Shown piece after piece: positions 44,388-49,683 of a DNA stretch of 64,000 nt. Numbering within the stretch: position 1 is the first letter of the stretch; each line of letters starts with the position of its first letter. The notes below the pieces were generated by a model. That model ran no database searches and was not told where the DNA came from. It was given only the letters and a program-made list of their open reading frames with translations. Source of the DNA: Acinetobacter sp. ANC 3832 (GTDB lineage: Bacteria > Pseudomonadota > Gammaproteobacteria > Pseudomonadales > Moraxellaceae); contig NZ_NEGJ01000003.1 of the NCBI RefSeq assembly GCF_002135415.1, positions 1 to 64,000 of the forward strand. Direction: 5' to 3'. Made by a program: the position numbers and the translations under genes.

Positions 44388-45686
44388 TCAATGCTTTAAC
44401 AGTGAACTTGGATCGATATTTTGCACCATCTGTAAACGTTGGTCTGCATAAATATCTGTATATGGTGCAAGAACGCGCATAAATCGATCAAAATACAGCA
44501 TTTGTTTAAACAATAAGGCAAAATCACGTGGGAATTTAATACCGTGACGCTCACCAACACCGACCATGTCCATCATAATGTCGTTTAAATCTGCTGGATT
44601 TGAAGTCAAAATTTGCTGTGGATCAGCCATCAGCACACCACTAAACAAGCGCTCTAAATCTGCGGCTAAAACTTGGGTATCAATTTGTTGACTGGTCATG
44701 CCCATTTTGAGCATATTATCAGCCATTGCAACATAGTCTGTTTTTTGCAACGCATCCATAAAGGCCATACAGGCTGTCCATACCACAGGATTCAACTGTC
44801 CGACAATACCAAAATCAATAAAACCGATGCGACCATCTTCAAGCAACATTAGATTGCCTGCATGTAAATCTGCATGGAAAGATTTACACATCATCAAACT
44901 ACCAAACCAAGTATTCATCGCTGTGATTAACACTTGTGAAGGGTCTTTTGCCACTTTTTTTACCACTTCAAAATCAGTCAATGGTACGCCATATAAGCGT
45001 TGCATGGTCAATACGCGACGCGTTGAATATTGATGATAAACTTTAGGCGCTGTTGCTGCATTATTTTGCGATACGTTCAAATAATCAACAAAATCATCAA
45101 GATTCTGTGCTTCTTCAATAAAGTCAACTTCACGTACCATGCGCGTTTTAATTTCATCAACAATATCTGCAAGTGAAGCAAATTTCGCTTTCGGTACAAG
45201 TCTTTCAAAAACTTTAGTTGCCCAATGCAGTACGCTTAAATCGGTATAGAGAATGGTTTCTACACCAGGTTTTTGTACTTTAATCACAACATCTTCGCCG
45301 CTAACCAGCTTCGCTGCATGCACTTGGGCAATCGATGCTGAAGCAAGTGGTTTTTCTTCAATTGAAGCAAAAATTTCACTTAAATCACGACCTGCAAATT
45401 CCGAAGCCAATACACCTTGCACATAACTGAATGGTAACGATGGAGTTTGGTCTAAACACCCTTGAAACTCTTCCACATATTCACGTGGAAATAATGAAGG
45501 TGTGCTTGCAATGAACTGCCCGAGTTTAATGTACGTTGAACCGAGTGATTCAAATGTTTCTCGCATAAGTTTGGCATTACTCGGTTTTTCAGTGGCATAT
45601 TTAATGCCCGCCTTCGCAGCAATCACAGCCGTTTCCCCAACTCGGGCAACTGAGCGCAGTCCATCTAAGAAGATATTGTTTTTCAT
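44388..45686 (-). CDS. ABC1/UbiB-like atypical kinase
   Basis: 432 residues. UbiB/ADCK family motifs are in place: YIKLGQF (KxGQ), the A-rich nucleotide loop LASASIAQVHAA, VIKVQKPG, the catalytic FHADLHAGNL and GFIDFGI. The C-terminal membrane helices of true UbiB are absent or weak and the protein is about 110 residues shorter, so a UbiB paralogue of the ABC1 family is more likely than UbiB itself. These proteins support quinone or lipid metabolism through ATPase activity. Monocistronic. Confidence 0.87.
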   Translation of the reverse strand: MKNNIFLDGLRSVARVGETAVIAAKAGIKYATEKPSNAKLMRETFESLGSTYIKLGQFIASTPSLFPREYVEEFQGCLDQTPSLPFSYVQGVLASEFAGRDLSEIFASIEEKPLASASIAQVHAAKLVSGEDVVIKVQKPGVETILYTDLSVLHWATKVFERLVPKAKFASLADIVDEIKTRMVREVDFIEEAQNLDDFVDYLNVSQNNAATAPKVYHQYSTRRVLTMQRLYGVPLTDFEVVKKVAKDPSQVLITAMNTWFGSLMMCKSFHADLHAGNLMLLEDGRIGFIDFGIVGQLNPVVWTACMAFMDALQKTDYVAMADNMLKMGMTSQQIDTQVLAADLERLFSGVLMADPQQILTSNPADLNDIMMDMVGVGERHGIKFPRDFALLFKQMLYFDRFMRVLAPYTDIYADQRLQMVQNIDPSSLLKH

Positions 45687-45725
45687 AATGTCTAAGTAGC
45701 ATCAAATTTATTGGAGTGTAGCAAA

Positions 45726-46517
45726 TTAATCGATGTTTGCAGTATGACTTGCCTGACAGTTTGGACAATCTATTTCTTTTTCAAAAGCTAAAATTCGTTG
45801 TTTCATTGTTAAACCATCCCAAAGTAACAGTTTTTGCTTGAGTGGTGTCATTCCTAAGCCTAAAAATAATAATGCATGATGTGCTTGTAAACTTGCCATC
45901 ACATTCGGCGTGGTTGCCAATACGCCTGAATCTGCACAGCGGAAACTTTCATTAATATGCTGTTCTTTTGGAAAGAGGCATTCATAACAAGCTGAATCCC
46001 CTTCGACCATCAATAACTGCCCTTGAAACGCAATGGCTGATGCGCTGATGAGTGGCACGTTCAACTGAGTACAGATTTGATTAACCAAATAGCGTGTCGT
46101 GAAATTATCACATCCATCTAAAACCAAGTCTTGTGATGCTATCAAGTCCGTAGCATTACTTTCATCAAGCTTAGCTACATAGCTTTCTACATGAATATTC
46201 GGATTAACCTGCTGTAAACGCTTTGCTAAAATTTCTGCTTTATAAAAACCAATATCTTGTTCTGTATATGCAATCTGACGTTGTAAATTACTCATCTCAA
46301 TGCTGTCAGCATCTATTAAAGCGATTTTTCCTACACCTGCACGTGCGAGTAACTCAGCTGTAGTACAACCTATTCCACCACAACCAACGATTAAAACATT
46401 GGCGAGTTTAAGCTTTTCCTGCGCTTCGATATCCCACTCATCAAGAAGGATCTGACGAGAATAGAGATGCATTTCGGATTCTGTGAGTTCTAAATCTGTT
46501 TCGGTCTGATCAATCAC
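45726..46517 (-). CDS. moeB: MoeB/ThiF-type adenylyltransferase
   Basis: 263 residues: YSRQILLDEWDIEAQEKL, the nucleotide loop VLIVGCGGIGCTTAELLARAGVG, DADSIEMSNLQRQIAY and DGCDNFTTRYLVN are E1-like marks. The zinc ligands are CYECLF and CPNC. No rhodanese domain follows. It adenylates the C-terminal glycine of a small sulfur carrier, MoaD in molybdopterin synthesis or ThiS in thiamine synthesis; the two cannot be separated here because neither pathway is adjacent. Confidence 0.85.
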   Translation of the reverse strand: MIDQTETDLELTESEMHLYSRQILLDEWDIEAQEKLKLANVLIVGCGGIGCTTAELLARAGVGKIALIDADSIEMSNLQRQIAYTEQDIGFYKAEILAKRLQQVNPNIHVESYVAKLDESNATDLIASQDLVLDGCDNFTTRYLVNQICTQLNVPLISASAIAFQGQLLMVEGDSACYECLFPKEQHINESFRCADSGVLATTPNVMASLQAHHALLFLGLGMTPLKQKLLLWDGLTMKQRILAFEKEIDCPNCQASHTANID

Positions 46518-46749
46518 GTATTTAGCCTATTACATTTTTGTTCGTATCAATAGCATGGATTATAAAGGAATTAGCTGATTGCTCTAGTGAAACTCTTTAA
46601 CAGTTGCTATTTTTTACCCCAATATTTTAAGCGCTCTTTAACAGCTTAATAAAATCAATAAGTTATACAACCTTAAAACAACTTTGGTTATTTGTTGCAT
46701 TTTATACTTATCCTATTGTTATTTTTATGGTTTATCACTTAATATTACT
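46518..46749 (+). other. AT-rich region before the CRISPR mini-array (possible leader)
   Basis: About 230 bases, strongly AT-rich, with a TATACT box at 46703-46708. It stands on the 5' side of the repeats in their canonical orientation, where a CRISPR leader would be. Its similarity to any known I-F leader cannot be judged by eye. Confidence 0.35.
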
Positions 46750-46837
46750 GTTCACTGCCATGTAGGCAGCTTAGAAAATACTAAAAACCCATTCTCCTTT
46801 CAATGTGTAGTTCACTGCCATGTAGGCAGCTTAGAAA
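46750..46837 (+). CRISPR. Orphan mini-array, type I-F-like, two repeats and one spacer
   Basis: Two identical 28-base repeats (46750-46777 and 46810-46837) begin GTTCACTGCCATGTAGGCAG and end CTTAGAAA, with the short stem CTGCC/GGCAG. They flank one 32-base spacer (46778-46809). The repeat length, GTTCACTGCC start, AGAAA end and 32-base spacer all match type I-F arrays. No cas gene is within the window, so any processing would need Cas6f from elsewhere in the genome. It could be a relic, a minimal array or a regulatory mini-array. Confidence 0.85.
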
Positions 46838-47009
46838 GCTAAAACCAATTTATACTTTCTACATGAGTTTTTTCTAAATTTTATGCAAAAAATAAAAACG
46901 TCTTTTTCAAATTAAATTTCTATAAAGGAGTATGATAAATCAATGTTTTTAGCAACATAAAGACTCCAAATATTACTCTATTGTTATTTTTGAAGTGAAA
47001 AGGAAGTCC

Positions 47010-48161
47010 ATGCAAAAATTACTACAATCAAAATACTTTCAAACAATCGCTCTTATCCCACTTATACTCACAGTAAGTAGCTGTGCTTCCACTACATCTA
47101 AAAACCAAAATCTTGCTCCACCTAATCATCTTAATACGATTCAATATCCCAATATTGATCAACAATTAGGAGAAAAACTATATCCCAATGAACAAATGGT
47201 CGCTAAAGAGATTGCAGATATTATTGAAAACTCTATTCGTAAACAATACTCCTCAACAACAGCTCTTCGTGATGCCCATCCTAAAGCACATGGTTGCGTT
47301 CAAGCAGAGTTCCATGTCTTAGAAAATCTGCCAAGTCGTTTTGCTCAAGGCATTTTTATTCCAGGTAAAACATATAAAGCATGGATTAGATTTTCAAATG
47401 GTTCTCATGATGCAACACAGCCAGATATTAAAAAAGATGCACGTGGGATGGCCATCAAAATTTTAAATGTTTCAGGAAAGAAAATTTTAGAAGGCGAAGA
47501 ACAAGCGACGACTCAAGACTTCATTATGATTAATCATCCTGTCTTTTTCGCGAATGACCCCAATCGCTATATGTCACTCATGCATGATGTAAACAGTGAA
47601 AGTTCACTTAAAAAACTTCATATTCCTTTTGCACTGGGTTTAAAAGGAACGAAGATTGCACTAGATTTAAATACAAGAATTTCGAATCCACTACAAGCAC
47701 GATATTGGTCAATGGTTCCCTATCAACTTGGAATAGATGCTGATCGTCAAGCTGTCAAATATTCAGCTCGTGCTTGCTCAAAAGCTCTAGATGCGATTCC
47801 TAATAAACCTAATGATAATTATTTGAGAGATGCGCTACGAACTAACTTAGAAAAAGAAGATGCTTGCATGGAATTTCTCATTCAGCCTAGAACTTCAGAC
47901 AAATTAGCTGTCGAAGACTCAATGACTGAGTGGCAAGAAAAGCAAGCTCCTTTTTATAAAGTCGCTACGATTCGTATTCCTAAACAAGTTTTTGATACAG
48001 CTGAACAGAACAAGTTTTGTGAAAATCTTTCGTTTACACCATGGCATGCTTTACCTGAACATAGACCTCTTGGTGTAACAAACCGACTTCGTAAAGTTAT
48101 TTATGAGCGTATCAGTAAAGTTCGACATGAAATGAATGCTACGCAGATGGTAGAACCATAA
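47010..48161 (+). CDS. Catalase-fold (SrpA-like) lipoprotein
   Basis: 383 residues from ATG 47010 after AAAAGGAAG; a GTG at 46995 is less likely. A lipoprotein signal ends in LTVSSC, so the protein is probably membrane-anchored in the periplasm. The catalase-like heme domain follows: HGCVQAEFHVLENLPSRFA, KAWIRFSNGSHD, DARGMAIKIL, QDFIMINHPVFF and the proximal region ARYWSMVPYQLG. Such small catalase-like proteins often have peroxidase rather than catalase activity. It lies just 3' of the CRISPR mini-array. Function inferred from fold only. Confidence 0.82.
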   Translation: MQKLLQSKYFQTIALIPLILTVSSCASTTSKNQNLAPPNHLNTIQYPNIDQQLGEKLYPNEQMVAKEIADIIENSIRKQYSSTTALRDAHPKAHGCVQAEFHVLENLPSRFAQGIFIPGKTYKAWIRFSNGSHDATQPDIKKDARGMAIKILNVSGKKILEGEEQATTQDFIMINHPVFFANDPNRYMSLMHDVNSESSLKKLHIPFALGLKGTKIALDLNTRISNPLQARYWSMVPYQLGIDADRQAVKYSARACSKALDAIPNKPNDNYLRDALRTNLEKEDACMEFLIQPRTSDKLAVEDSMTEWQEKQAPFYKVATIRIPKQVFDTAEQNKFCENLSFTPWHALPEHRPLGVTNRLRKVIYERISKVRHEMNATQMVEP

Positions 48162-48326
48162 AGGAATTTCATTTTACTAAACTCGAAATCATGAACTTGA
48201 ACGAGAAACTAAATTTTTTAATCTTGTTAAAATTTCACTAAAAATATTGGTGCAGATTTGTATTTATAATATCCAAAAAATGAGGAATATAAAGATAATA
48301 AGGATAATTTGCGTAATTCTGATATT

Positions 48327-48353
48327 AAAACACTCTCACCTGGAGAGTGTTTT
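48327..48353. terminator. Terminator between the catalase-like gene and yceI
   Basis: Stem AAACACTCTC / GAGAGTGTTT with a five-base loop. It lies between two convergent genes and can serve both. Confidence 0.75.
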
Positions 48354-48382
48354 GAAAATATAAGCATATGCTTTATAAAGTA

Positions 48383-48961
48383 TTACTTAGCAACAGATGC
48401 TTCAGTTGTAATATTTACAGTAATCTTGTCACCTACATTCGGTACATAGTTACCAATACCAAATGCTGAACGATCAAATGTAGTCGTTGCATTAAAACCT
48501 ACAGATTGAGCTTTAGTCATTGGATGTTCGCCTTGTTTATTTAAAACTGCATCCAATACCACAGGTTTAGTCACACCTTTTACAGTTAAATTACCTGTGA
48601 TTTTGTATTTATTTTTACCTAAAGACTGTACTTTGGTACTTTTAAACGTAATGTTTGGGAATTTTGCTGCATCAAACCATGCTTCTTGTTGAAATTCTTT
48701 ATCTAAAGCAGGAACATTGGTATTAACACTGCTTAATGGAATCGTTACATCGACAGATGAATTGGCAGGTTTTTCATTATCTACATTAATGGTACCTGTA
48801 ATATCACTGAAGTTCGCAGATGGTGTAGAAAAACCAAAGTGATTCCATGTAAATACAGTCGCTGTATGGGTAGGATCGATTTGATATGCAACTGGTTTTG
48901 CAAAAGAGAATGTCGCTGCTGTTGCTACCGCTAAACCTAATGTTAATGCTTTAATGTTCAT
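48383..48961 (-). CDS. YceI-family periplasmic lipid-binding protein
   Basis: 192 residues with a clear signal peptide (LGLAVATAATFSFA, cleaved near residue 21). The lipocalin-like YceI fold is seen in YQIDPTHTATVFTWNHFGFS, TGTINVD, FDAAKFPNITFKST, the strand KITGNLTVKGVTKPVVLD and FDRSAFGIGNY. By family it binds isoprenoid or fatty lipids in the periplasm. Monocistronic. Intact. Confidence 0.92.
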   Translation of the reverse strand: MNIKALTLGLAVATAATFSFAKPVAYQIDPTHTATVFTWNHFGFSTPSANFSDITGTINVDNEKPANSSVDVTIPLSSVNTNVPALDKEFQQEAWFDAAKFPNITFKSTKVQSLGKNKYKITGNLTVKGVTKPVVLDAVLNKQGEHPMTKAQSVGFNATTTFDRSAFGIGNYVPNVGDKITVNITTEASVAK

Positions 48962-49275
48962 GTTTTTTATCTCGCTTTAGAATGATGATTAGTTTATACC
49001 TTATCGATTTTAATGCACTCATATCAATAAAACGATATGTTTCATTATTAGAACGATTCTCTTTCATTACACATCACATATAGATAAAAAATTCACTATC
49101 ACATTGATAAGAAATAAATTATTAAAATTAAGTATATAATTAACATTCTTAATCCTGAGTATTAGTAAACTTAATTTATATTCTGTGAAGTATTTTATAC
49201 AAAAAACCTACAGTCGAATCAAAGCATAAAGCGTTGTATATCAATATATATTTCTAATTTTAAGAAGATGCACAA
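48962..49275. other. Divergent intergenic region yceI / osmC-like
   Basis: 314 AT-rich bases that must carry both divergent promoters. I see no clear operator or structured RNA. Confidence 0.3.
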
Positions 49276-49683
49276 ATGATTCATTCTGTATTGGCTCAAA
49301 GTACAACGACACCCTATCGTGTCACACTTACTAATCCACAAGGGCATATCTGGTATGTCGATGAACCTATAGAGAAAGGTGGTGCAGACTCTGCTCCAAA
49401 CCCAATGCAGTTATTACTTTCTGCTTTAGGTGCGTGTACTACAGTAACCTTGCAAATGTATGCAGACCATAAACAAATTAAACTCGAACATGTACAGGTA
49501 GATTTAGCTTTAAATCCCAATGGAGAGCCTGAAGCTGGGCAAAATATCATTGAGCGTAAAATTACTTTAAAGGGTGATTTCACAGAAGATCAGCATAAAC
49601 GTCTATTAAAAGTTGCAGAAAGCTGTCCTGTACATAAATTATTGACGTCGAATATTCAAATTCAGACGGAATTAGATATATAA
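49276..49683 (+). CDS. OsmC/Ohr-family protein
   Basis: 135 residues. OsmC-type marks: the loop GGADSAPNPMQLLLSALGAC with the first redox cysteine (about residue 54) and AESCPVHKLL with the second near 115. The family reduces organic peroxides via this Cys pair. This is the YhfA-like subgroup rather than Ohr, judged by its short length and sequence order. AAGAAG upstream of the ATG. Confidence 0.88.
   Translation: MIHSVLAQSTTTPYRVTLTNPQGHIWYVDEPIEKGGADSAPNPMQLLLSALGACTTVTLQMYADHKQIKLEHVQVDLALNPNGEPEAGQNIIERKITLKGDFTEDQHKRLLKVAESCPVHKLLTSNIQIQTELDI

Follow-up and report, generated by a model that had tools for sequence, protein, structure and literature searches.

A one-spacer type I-F CRISPR array and its leader upstream of moeB in Acinetobacter sp. 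ANC 3832, probably a satellite array that has lost its cas partner

Architecture of the locus

The window, that is, the whole stretch of 64,000 nucleotides of contig NZ_NEGJ01000003.1 from Acinetobacter sp. ANC 3832 analyzed here, contains two direct repeats and a single spacer between a moeB-like gene and a gene with a catalase domain (Table 1). Domain content assigns the former to the ThiF/MoeB family and gives the latter a partial catalase domain. The catalase-like gene was considered as a partner of the array and dropped, because moeB and repeats are missing from the surroundings of all 80 relatives fetched.

Table 1 Features at the moeB-side array of the window.
Feature	Position	Strand	Remarks
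moeB-like gene (ThiF family)	45726..46517	-	Divergent from the array; neighbor, outside the system
CRISPR leader, satellite type	46597..46749 (about)	+	Conserved core from 46612; homologous to csy4-adjacent and moeB-side leaders
Promoter-like pair	46597..46626	+	TTAACA 46597-46602, 18 nt, AATATT 46621-46626; comparative support
IHF-type site AATCAATAAGTTA	46653..46665	+	Exact match to the IHF consensus WATCAANNNNTTR
I-F repeat 1	46750..46777	+	Stem CTGCC/GGCAG, tail CTTAGAAA
Single spacer	46778..46809	+	Exactly 32 nt
I-F repeat 2	46810..46837	+	Identical to repeat 1; not degenerate
Catalase-domain gene	47010..48161	+	Lipoprotein-like start (start picked by eye); neighbor

The preliminary description of this DNA reported two identical 28-base I-F repeats around a spacer of exactly 32 bases, which is confirmed by the coordinates, by shuffling and by a family match. 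With up to three mismatches allowed, the repeat pattern matched at two places in the window and 100 dinucleotide shuffles gave no match; both copies score 41.6 bits with the Rfam family CRISPR-DR4 (RF01317), above its gathering score of 35. The repeat folds into a hairpin (5-bp stem, 5-nt loop) followed by an 8-nt 3' tail, at -7.8 kcal/mol, an unexceptional energy that was matched by 15 of 200 shuffles. The 28-nt repeat, 5-bp stem, 8-nt tail and 32-nt spacer are those of an I-F array. A multi-copy repeat family, which would have spoken against this assignment, is dismissed because the repeat is present only twice in the whole genome (up to three mismatches). In 7 of 20 fetched cas regions from other species, the arrays next to csy4 have a repeat identical to both copies, which strengthens the earlier and reasonable argument that perfect repeat identity speaks against long decay. 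Many arrays at moeB end in a degenerate last repeat; repeat 2 of the window is intact. A terminator scan at the window array found none. Overall, the one-spacer I-F array in the window is genuine.

The leader

The coordinates first given for this feature were too short, as a conserved leader upstream of the array is part of it. It lies directly upstream of repeat 1 and is homologous to csy4-adjacent leaders, as is characteristic of I-F arrays, and its core is intact. Alignment of 26 moeB-linked leaders together with their first repeat gave a mean column identity of 79%. We extracted 55 leaders and left out two second copies; the IHF-type site is found in 53 of the 53 examined.

The csy4-adjacent leaders start at the csy4 stop codon. 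Using a strict pattern we found TTGACA upstream of CAATA, at constant spacing, in 22 of the 26 moeB-linked leaders, and a looser pattern that includes the TTAACA of the window raised this to 25. Neither version occurs in the 16 csy4-adjacent leaders, a class recognized by the csy4 3' end, while the strict one is present in 6 of 11 other leaders. As judged by this comparison, the hexamer may serve as the -35 element of a promoter within the leader itself. A single-sequence promoter scan of the window performed at chance (2 found, 2.6 expected). The window carries TTAACA where most other moeB-site leaders have TTGACA, which counts against the explanation favored below. A 19-nt stretch of the leader (46708-46726) recurs with 89% identity at 46973-46991, just before the catalase-like gene, possibly by chance in AT-rich DNA.

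The moeB site across Acinetobacter

In a genus panel of one genome per species, the 491-bp intergenic region of the window matched at least 78 of 149 genomes at E <= 0.001, its own included, and moeB was present in 142 (E <= 1e-60). The DNA upstream of moeB was scanned in these 142 genomes as two sets: one of 127, with 29 flanks of at most 1.5 kb (221 bp in G019) and the others of about 6 kb, and one of 15, with four short flanks of 432 to 4,721 bases. Of the 142 genomes, 28 have an I-F leader immediately upstream of moeB; in the 15-genome set leader and repeat are absent from this place. The preliminary description had the array standing alone between its two neighbors, which is true of this genome and not of the genus. 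At least one repeat is kept in 26 of the 28 leader-bearing genomes and the first repeat begins 223-251 bp from the moeB start (232 bp in the window). G028 and G003 have the leader without repeats, in G003 as a short piece, and in both it continues into sequence that by eye resembles an insertion element.

G024, G091, G092, G140, G145 and G162 were rejected as leader-only relics, since the common leader type at moeB is accompanied there by another repeat family (GTTCATGACGGCATACGTCATTTAGAAA). In these genomes the repeats switch while the leader persists. Across species, the stem of the moeB-site repeat has two-sided changes in 4 of 5 pairs with 129 of 130 cells paired, and its covariation score was reached by none of 500 shuffles; two stem measures, the pairs with two-sided change and the further pair types, were not above shuffles. 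No spacer among 448 at the moeB site is common to species (up to 6 mismatches in 30).

The moeB array and csy4 lie on separate contigs in G027 and about 290 kb apart in G021, consistent with satellite arrays served in trans. Presence of the site is only weakly linked to Csy4, with 16 of 57 genomes that have the protein and 12 of 85 that lack it (p = 0.053, 142 genomes), a further point against the explanation favored below. The nearest moeB protein relatives of the window (G083, G005, G148, G121, G113 and G099) have no leader within 1.5 kb upstream, which again counts against the favored explanation.

Arrays at moeB differ in length with the presence of Csy4 (Table 2). They have 1-11 repeats (median 2.5) in 12 genomes without Csy4 and 4-88 repeats (median 25.5) in 14 genomes with it (Mann-Whitney p = 8.6e-5, uncorrected for phylogeny), counts that include degenerate terminal copies. 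Short arrays of 4 and 5 repeats also occur in the Csy4-positive group, against the favored explanation. A near-identical last repeat and trailer closes arrays of 39 (G162) and 17 (G140) repeats in genomes with Csy4, and the near-identical trailer series continues without Csy4 at 4 (G024), 2 (G145), 2 (G091) and 1 (G092).

Table 2 Repeat counts of moeB-site arrays, degenerate terminal copies included.
Csy4	Genome and number of repeats
Absent	G000 (window) 2, G085 2, G036 4, G125 3, G024 4, G091 2, G111 2, G092 1, G145 2, G098 7, G116 11, G006 3
Present	G107 7 (contig end cuts), G013 43, G151 80, G027 28, G131 9, G100 5, G130 88 (near end of stretch), G140 17, G162 39, G076 36, G138 4, G021 24, G158 24, G142 27

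Cas genes and spacer targets

The host genome (3,813,956 bases in 35 contigs) is rated 100% complete. Searches with four families, Cas1 (PF01867), Csy4 (PF09618), Csy3 (PF09615) and I-F Cas3 (TIGR02562), gave no match in it. On these four families, a complete I-F system is missing from the genome, so that the earlier statement of an array without cas genes is borne out beyond its surroundings. For comparison, Csy4 is found in 61 and Cas1 in 62 of the 149 genomes of the panel. The csy4-adjacent leader of G013, used as a query, had one match in the host genome, namely the leader of the window array; there is therefore no second leader marking a lost cas locus. As Cas is absent, the array gives no immunity now.

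The preliminary description proposed phages, plasmids and the host genome as sources of a target with a CC PAM, and no protospacer was found among them. At up to three mismatches the spacer matched only itself, both in its own genome and in 175 genomes of the genus. Matches to phages (2) and to plasmids (15, E 3-9) were weak and partial. IMG/VR held no exact match; with every sixth base left free, two partial patterns were found in 15 and 36 stretches, and the best of these 51 matches after extension has 7 mismatches and is preceded by AG where CC is expected. A PAM-plus-seed pattern (up to two mismatches) occurred at 11 places in the genome, one of them the array itself, and the reversed control at 3. 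Seven of the 10 other places were inspected and none exceeded 20 of 32 matching positions; the excess over the control (10 vs 3) may come from composition.

Origin of the array

We consider it likely that the window holds a satellite I-F array with its leader, now without its cas partner and reduced to one spacer. The 'relic or satellite' option of the preliminary description thus gains support from the I-F arrays upstream of moeB in other Acinetobacter, several of which are far from csy4. Further points in its favor are the presence of only two repeats in the genome, the lack of matches to the four cas families, the covarying stem at this site, the lower repeat counts in genomes without Csy4, the trailer series, the repeat shared with csy4-adjacent arrays and the A. 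baumannii AYE experiments described below. A satellite array with leader would have occupied the place just upstream of moeB before the I-F cas genes were lost from the genome, perhaps fairly recently. Once capture of new spacers had ceased, recombination between repeats would have trimmed the array to a single spacer, a step that we place after the cas loss. The array may still be transcribed, and a compatible I-F system, for example on a plasmid, could then process its product and let it take up spacers. Of the 21 plasmid records that match a leader-array query, 5 match at an annotated cas6f, and one Acinetobacter plasmid record carries all six I-F cas genes as annotated; because I-F systems occur on plasmids, a route for re-arming exists in principle. 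The array is probably a dormant stub that was recently stranded, as judged from repeats equal to those of cas-bearing relatives and an unspoiled leader core, and should I-F Cas proteins come back it could probably still be used.

If this reading is right, the window array shows the state of an I-F array after its cas genes are gone, and the cross-species length series (39 and 17 repeats with Csy4; 4, 2, 2 and 1 without) could time the shrinkage. Were such stubs re-armable by I-F systems on plasmids, a genome could recover from cas loss, and it would depend on the stub what memory and what acceptor site remained. A wider version, which we think rather doubtful, makes the place upstream of moeB a standing array dock for the whole genus: a satellite leader with its own promoter would keep the array apart from the cas operon, and lineages that lose cas would keep a trimmed working stub, re-armable by I-F systems from plasmids.

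The mini-array might instead be mobile or newly seeded, a copied leader-repeat unit beside moeB that was never long, an explanation that we find improbable. A tree of 53 leaders requires 3 changes, not 1, to account for the moeB group (shuffled mean 17.9); repeated seeding of the site is therefore possible and the window array was perhaps never long, while a single origin of the site is possible too. The leader of the window pairs with the moeB leader of G107 and then with satellites located elsewhere in the genomes of G084 and G143 (modest support), and the same upstream TTGACA is found at other sites, which fits seeding. The trailer of the window array matches none of the other arrays seen; this makes a shrunken satellite slightly less likely and seeding slightly more so. 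On the other hand, long arrays lie equally far from moeB in other lineages, and arrays of graded length end in nearly the same trailer; neither suits a unit that was never long.

Two further explanations assign the spacer a target of its own, and both are very unlikely. The array could be directed against incoming I-F cas genes, and its architecture, a short orphan I-F array whose host lacks cas genes, is that of orphan CRISPR4 of E. coli, which reportedly carries spacers against I-F cas genes. The spacer of the window, in contrast, has no match in 20 Acinetobacter cas regions: its best ungapped alignment has 10 mismatches (20 shuffled spacers gave 10-12), spacers from the orphan arrays at moeB, 31 in all, have 9-13 mismatches compared with 10-13 for shuffles, and the 175 genus genomes searched above add nothing to its self-match. 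The other candidate, which we find hard to credit, is a guide of the CreA or CreR kind, which would pair partially with a nearby promoter and bring a Cas complex there. The one-spacer form agrees with this, the spacer begins with ATACTA like a CreA-like element in the record L350 described below, and CreTA is known from Acinetobacter I-F loci in the available part of PMC10097628. However, no CC-flanked seed of at least 6 nt lies within 45000-49500, the best seed in the window measures 6 nt and is surpassed by 134 of 200 shuffled spacers, and the longest seed seen across the genome falls inside a 415-aa ORF rather than a promoter. Moreover, the repeats of the window are perfect while those of CreA are not, and the genome has no Cas for a guide to act with. 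The preliminary description's 'regulatory RNA' option thus received no support from seed searches or cas-region matches.

Relation to known arrays

The closest counterparts are the csy4-adjacent I-F arrays of Acinetobacter, with which the window array shares the 28-nt repeat (identical in the 7 cas regions mentioned), the 60-nt period and a leader core with an IHF-type site. It differs from them in having no cas genes, one spacer, and a leader upstream of moeB with something other than the csy4 3' end in its upstream part. Orphan arrays in cas-less strains or loci of the A. calcoaceticus-baumannii complex are also alike, as far as can be taken from the accessible portions of PMC11035748 and PMC13313168. 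The former covers orphan arrays in the A. baumannii complex and its main text leaves moeB unmentioned; the latter covers A. baumannii isolates that carry arrays but lack cas genes, interprets these as remnants and, in its available text, names moeB once, in a genomic island and not with arrays. Among the matches listed in our literature search, mostly from outside subscription journals, no title concerns an array site at moeB.

Experiments in A. baumannii AYE, as given in part of PMC9602844, indicate what such a stub may be capable of. A leader with one repeat served as spacer acceptor when guides and Cas came from elsewhere, a promoter-repeat-spacer-repeat unit served as a guide source, and leaders of at least 100 bp gave high acquisition whereas 60 bp gave none.

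CreTA of Acinetobacter I-F loci resembles the window array as a one-spacer element with I-F-type repeats. According to the part of PMC10097628 at hand, the repeats of CreA are degenerate, the element is embedded in the cas operon and a PAM-flanked target lies close to it; none of these features was found for the window array. Degenerate repeat pairs inside a cas region were seen in L332 (5010-5085, from G151) and L342 (4833-4919, from G153) and are possibly CreA-like; no CC-flanked seed of at least 8 nt was seen for the L332 pair, and the L342 pair has a 9-nt match behind GC. In L350 and L351 (CAKLQF020000007.1 and CAKLQH020000006.1) a degenerate I-F repeat pair with a 30-nt insert lies at 1497-1582 between cas1 and a Cas3-like helicase gene, and this insert matches with its first 11 nt a CC-flanked site some 220 bp upstream. 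The element resembles a CreA guide located elsewhere than in the cas3-csy1 gap described in the accessible text of PMC10097628. Both records are named 'Acinetobacter phage MD-2021a' and carry I-F cas1, helicase and csy4 genes; they are perhaps contigs of bacterial origin deposited under a phage name.
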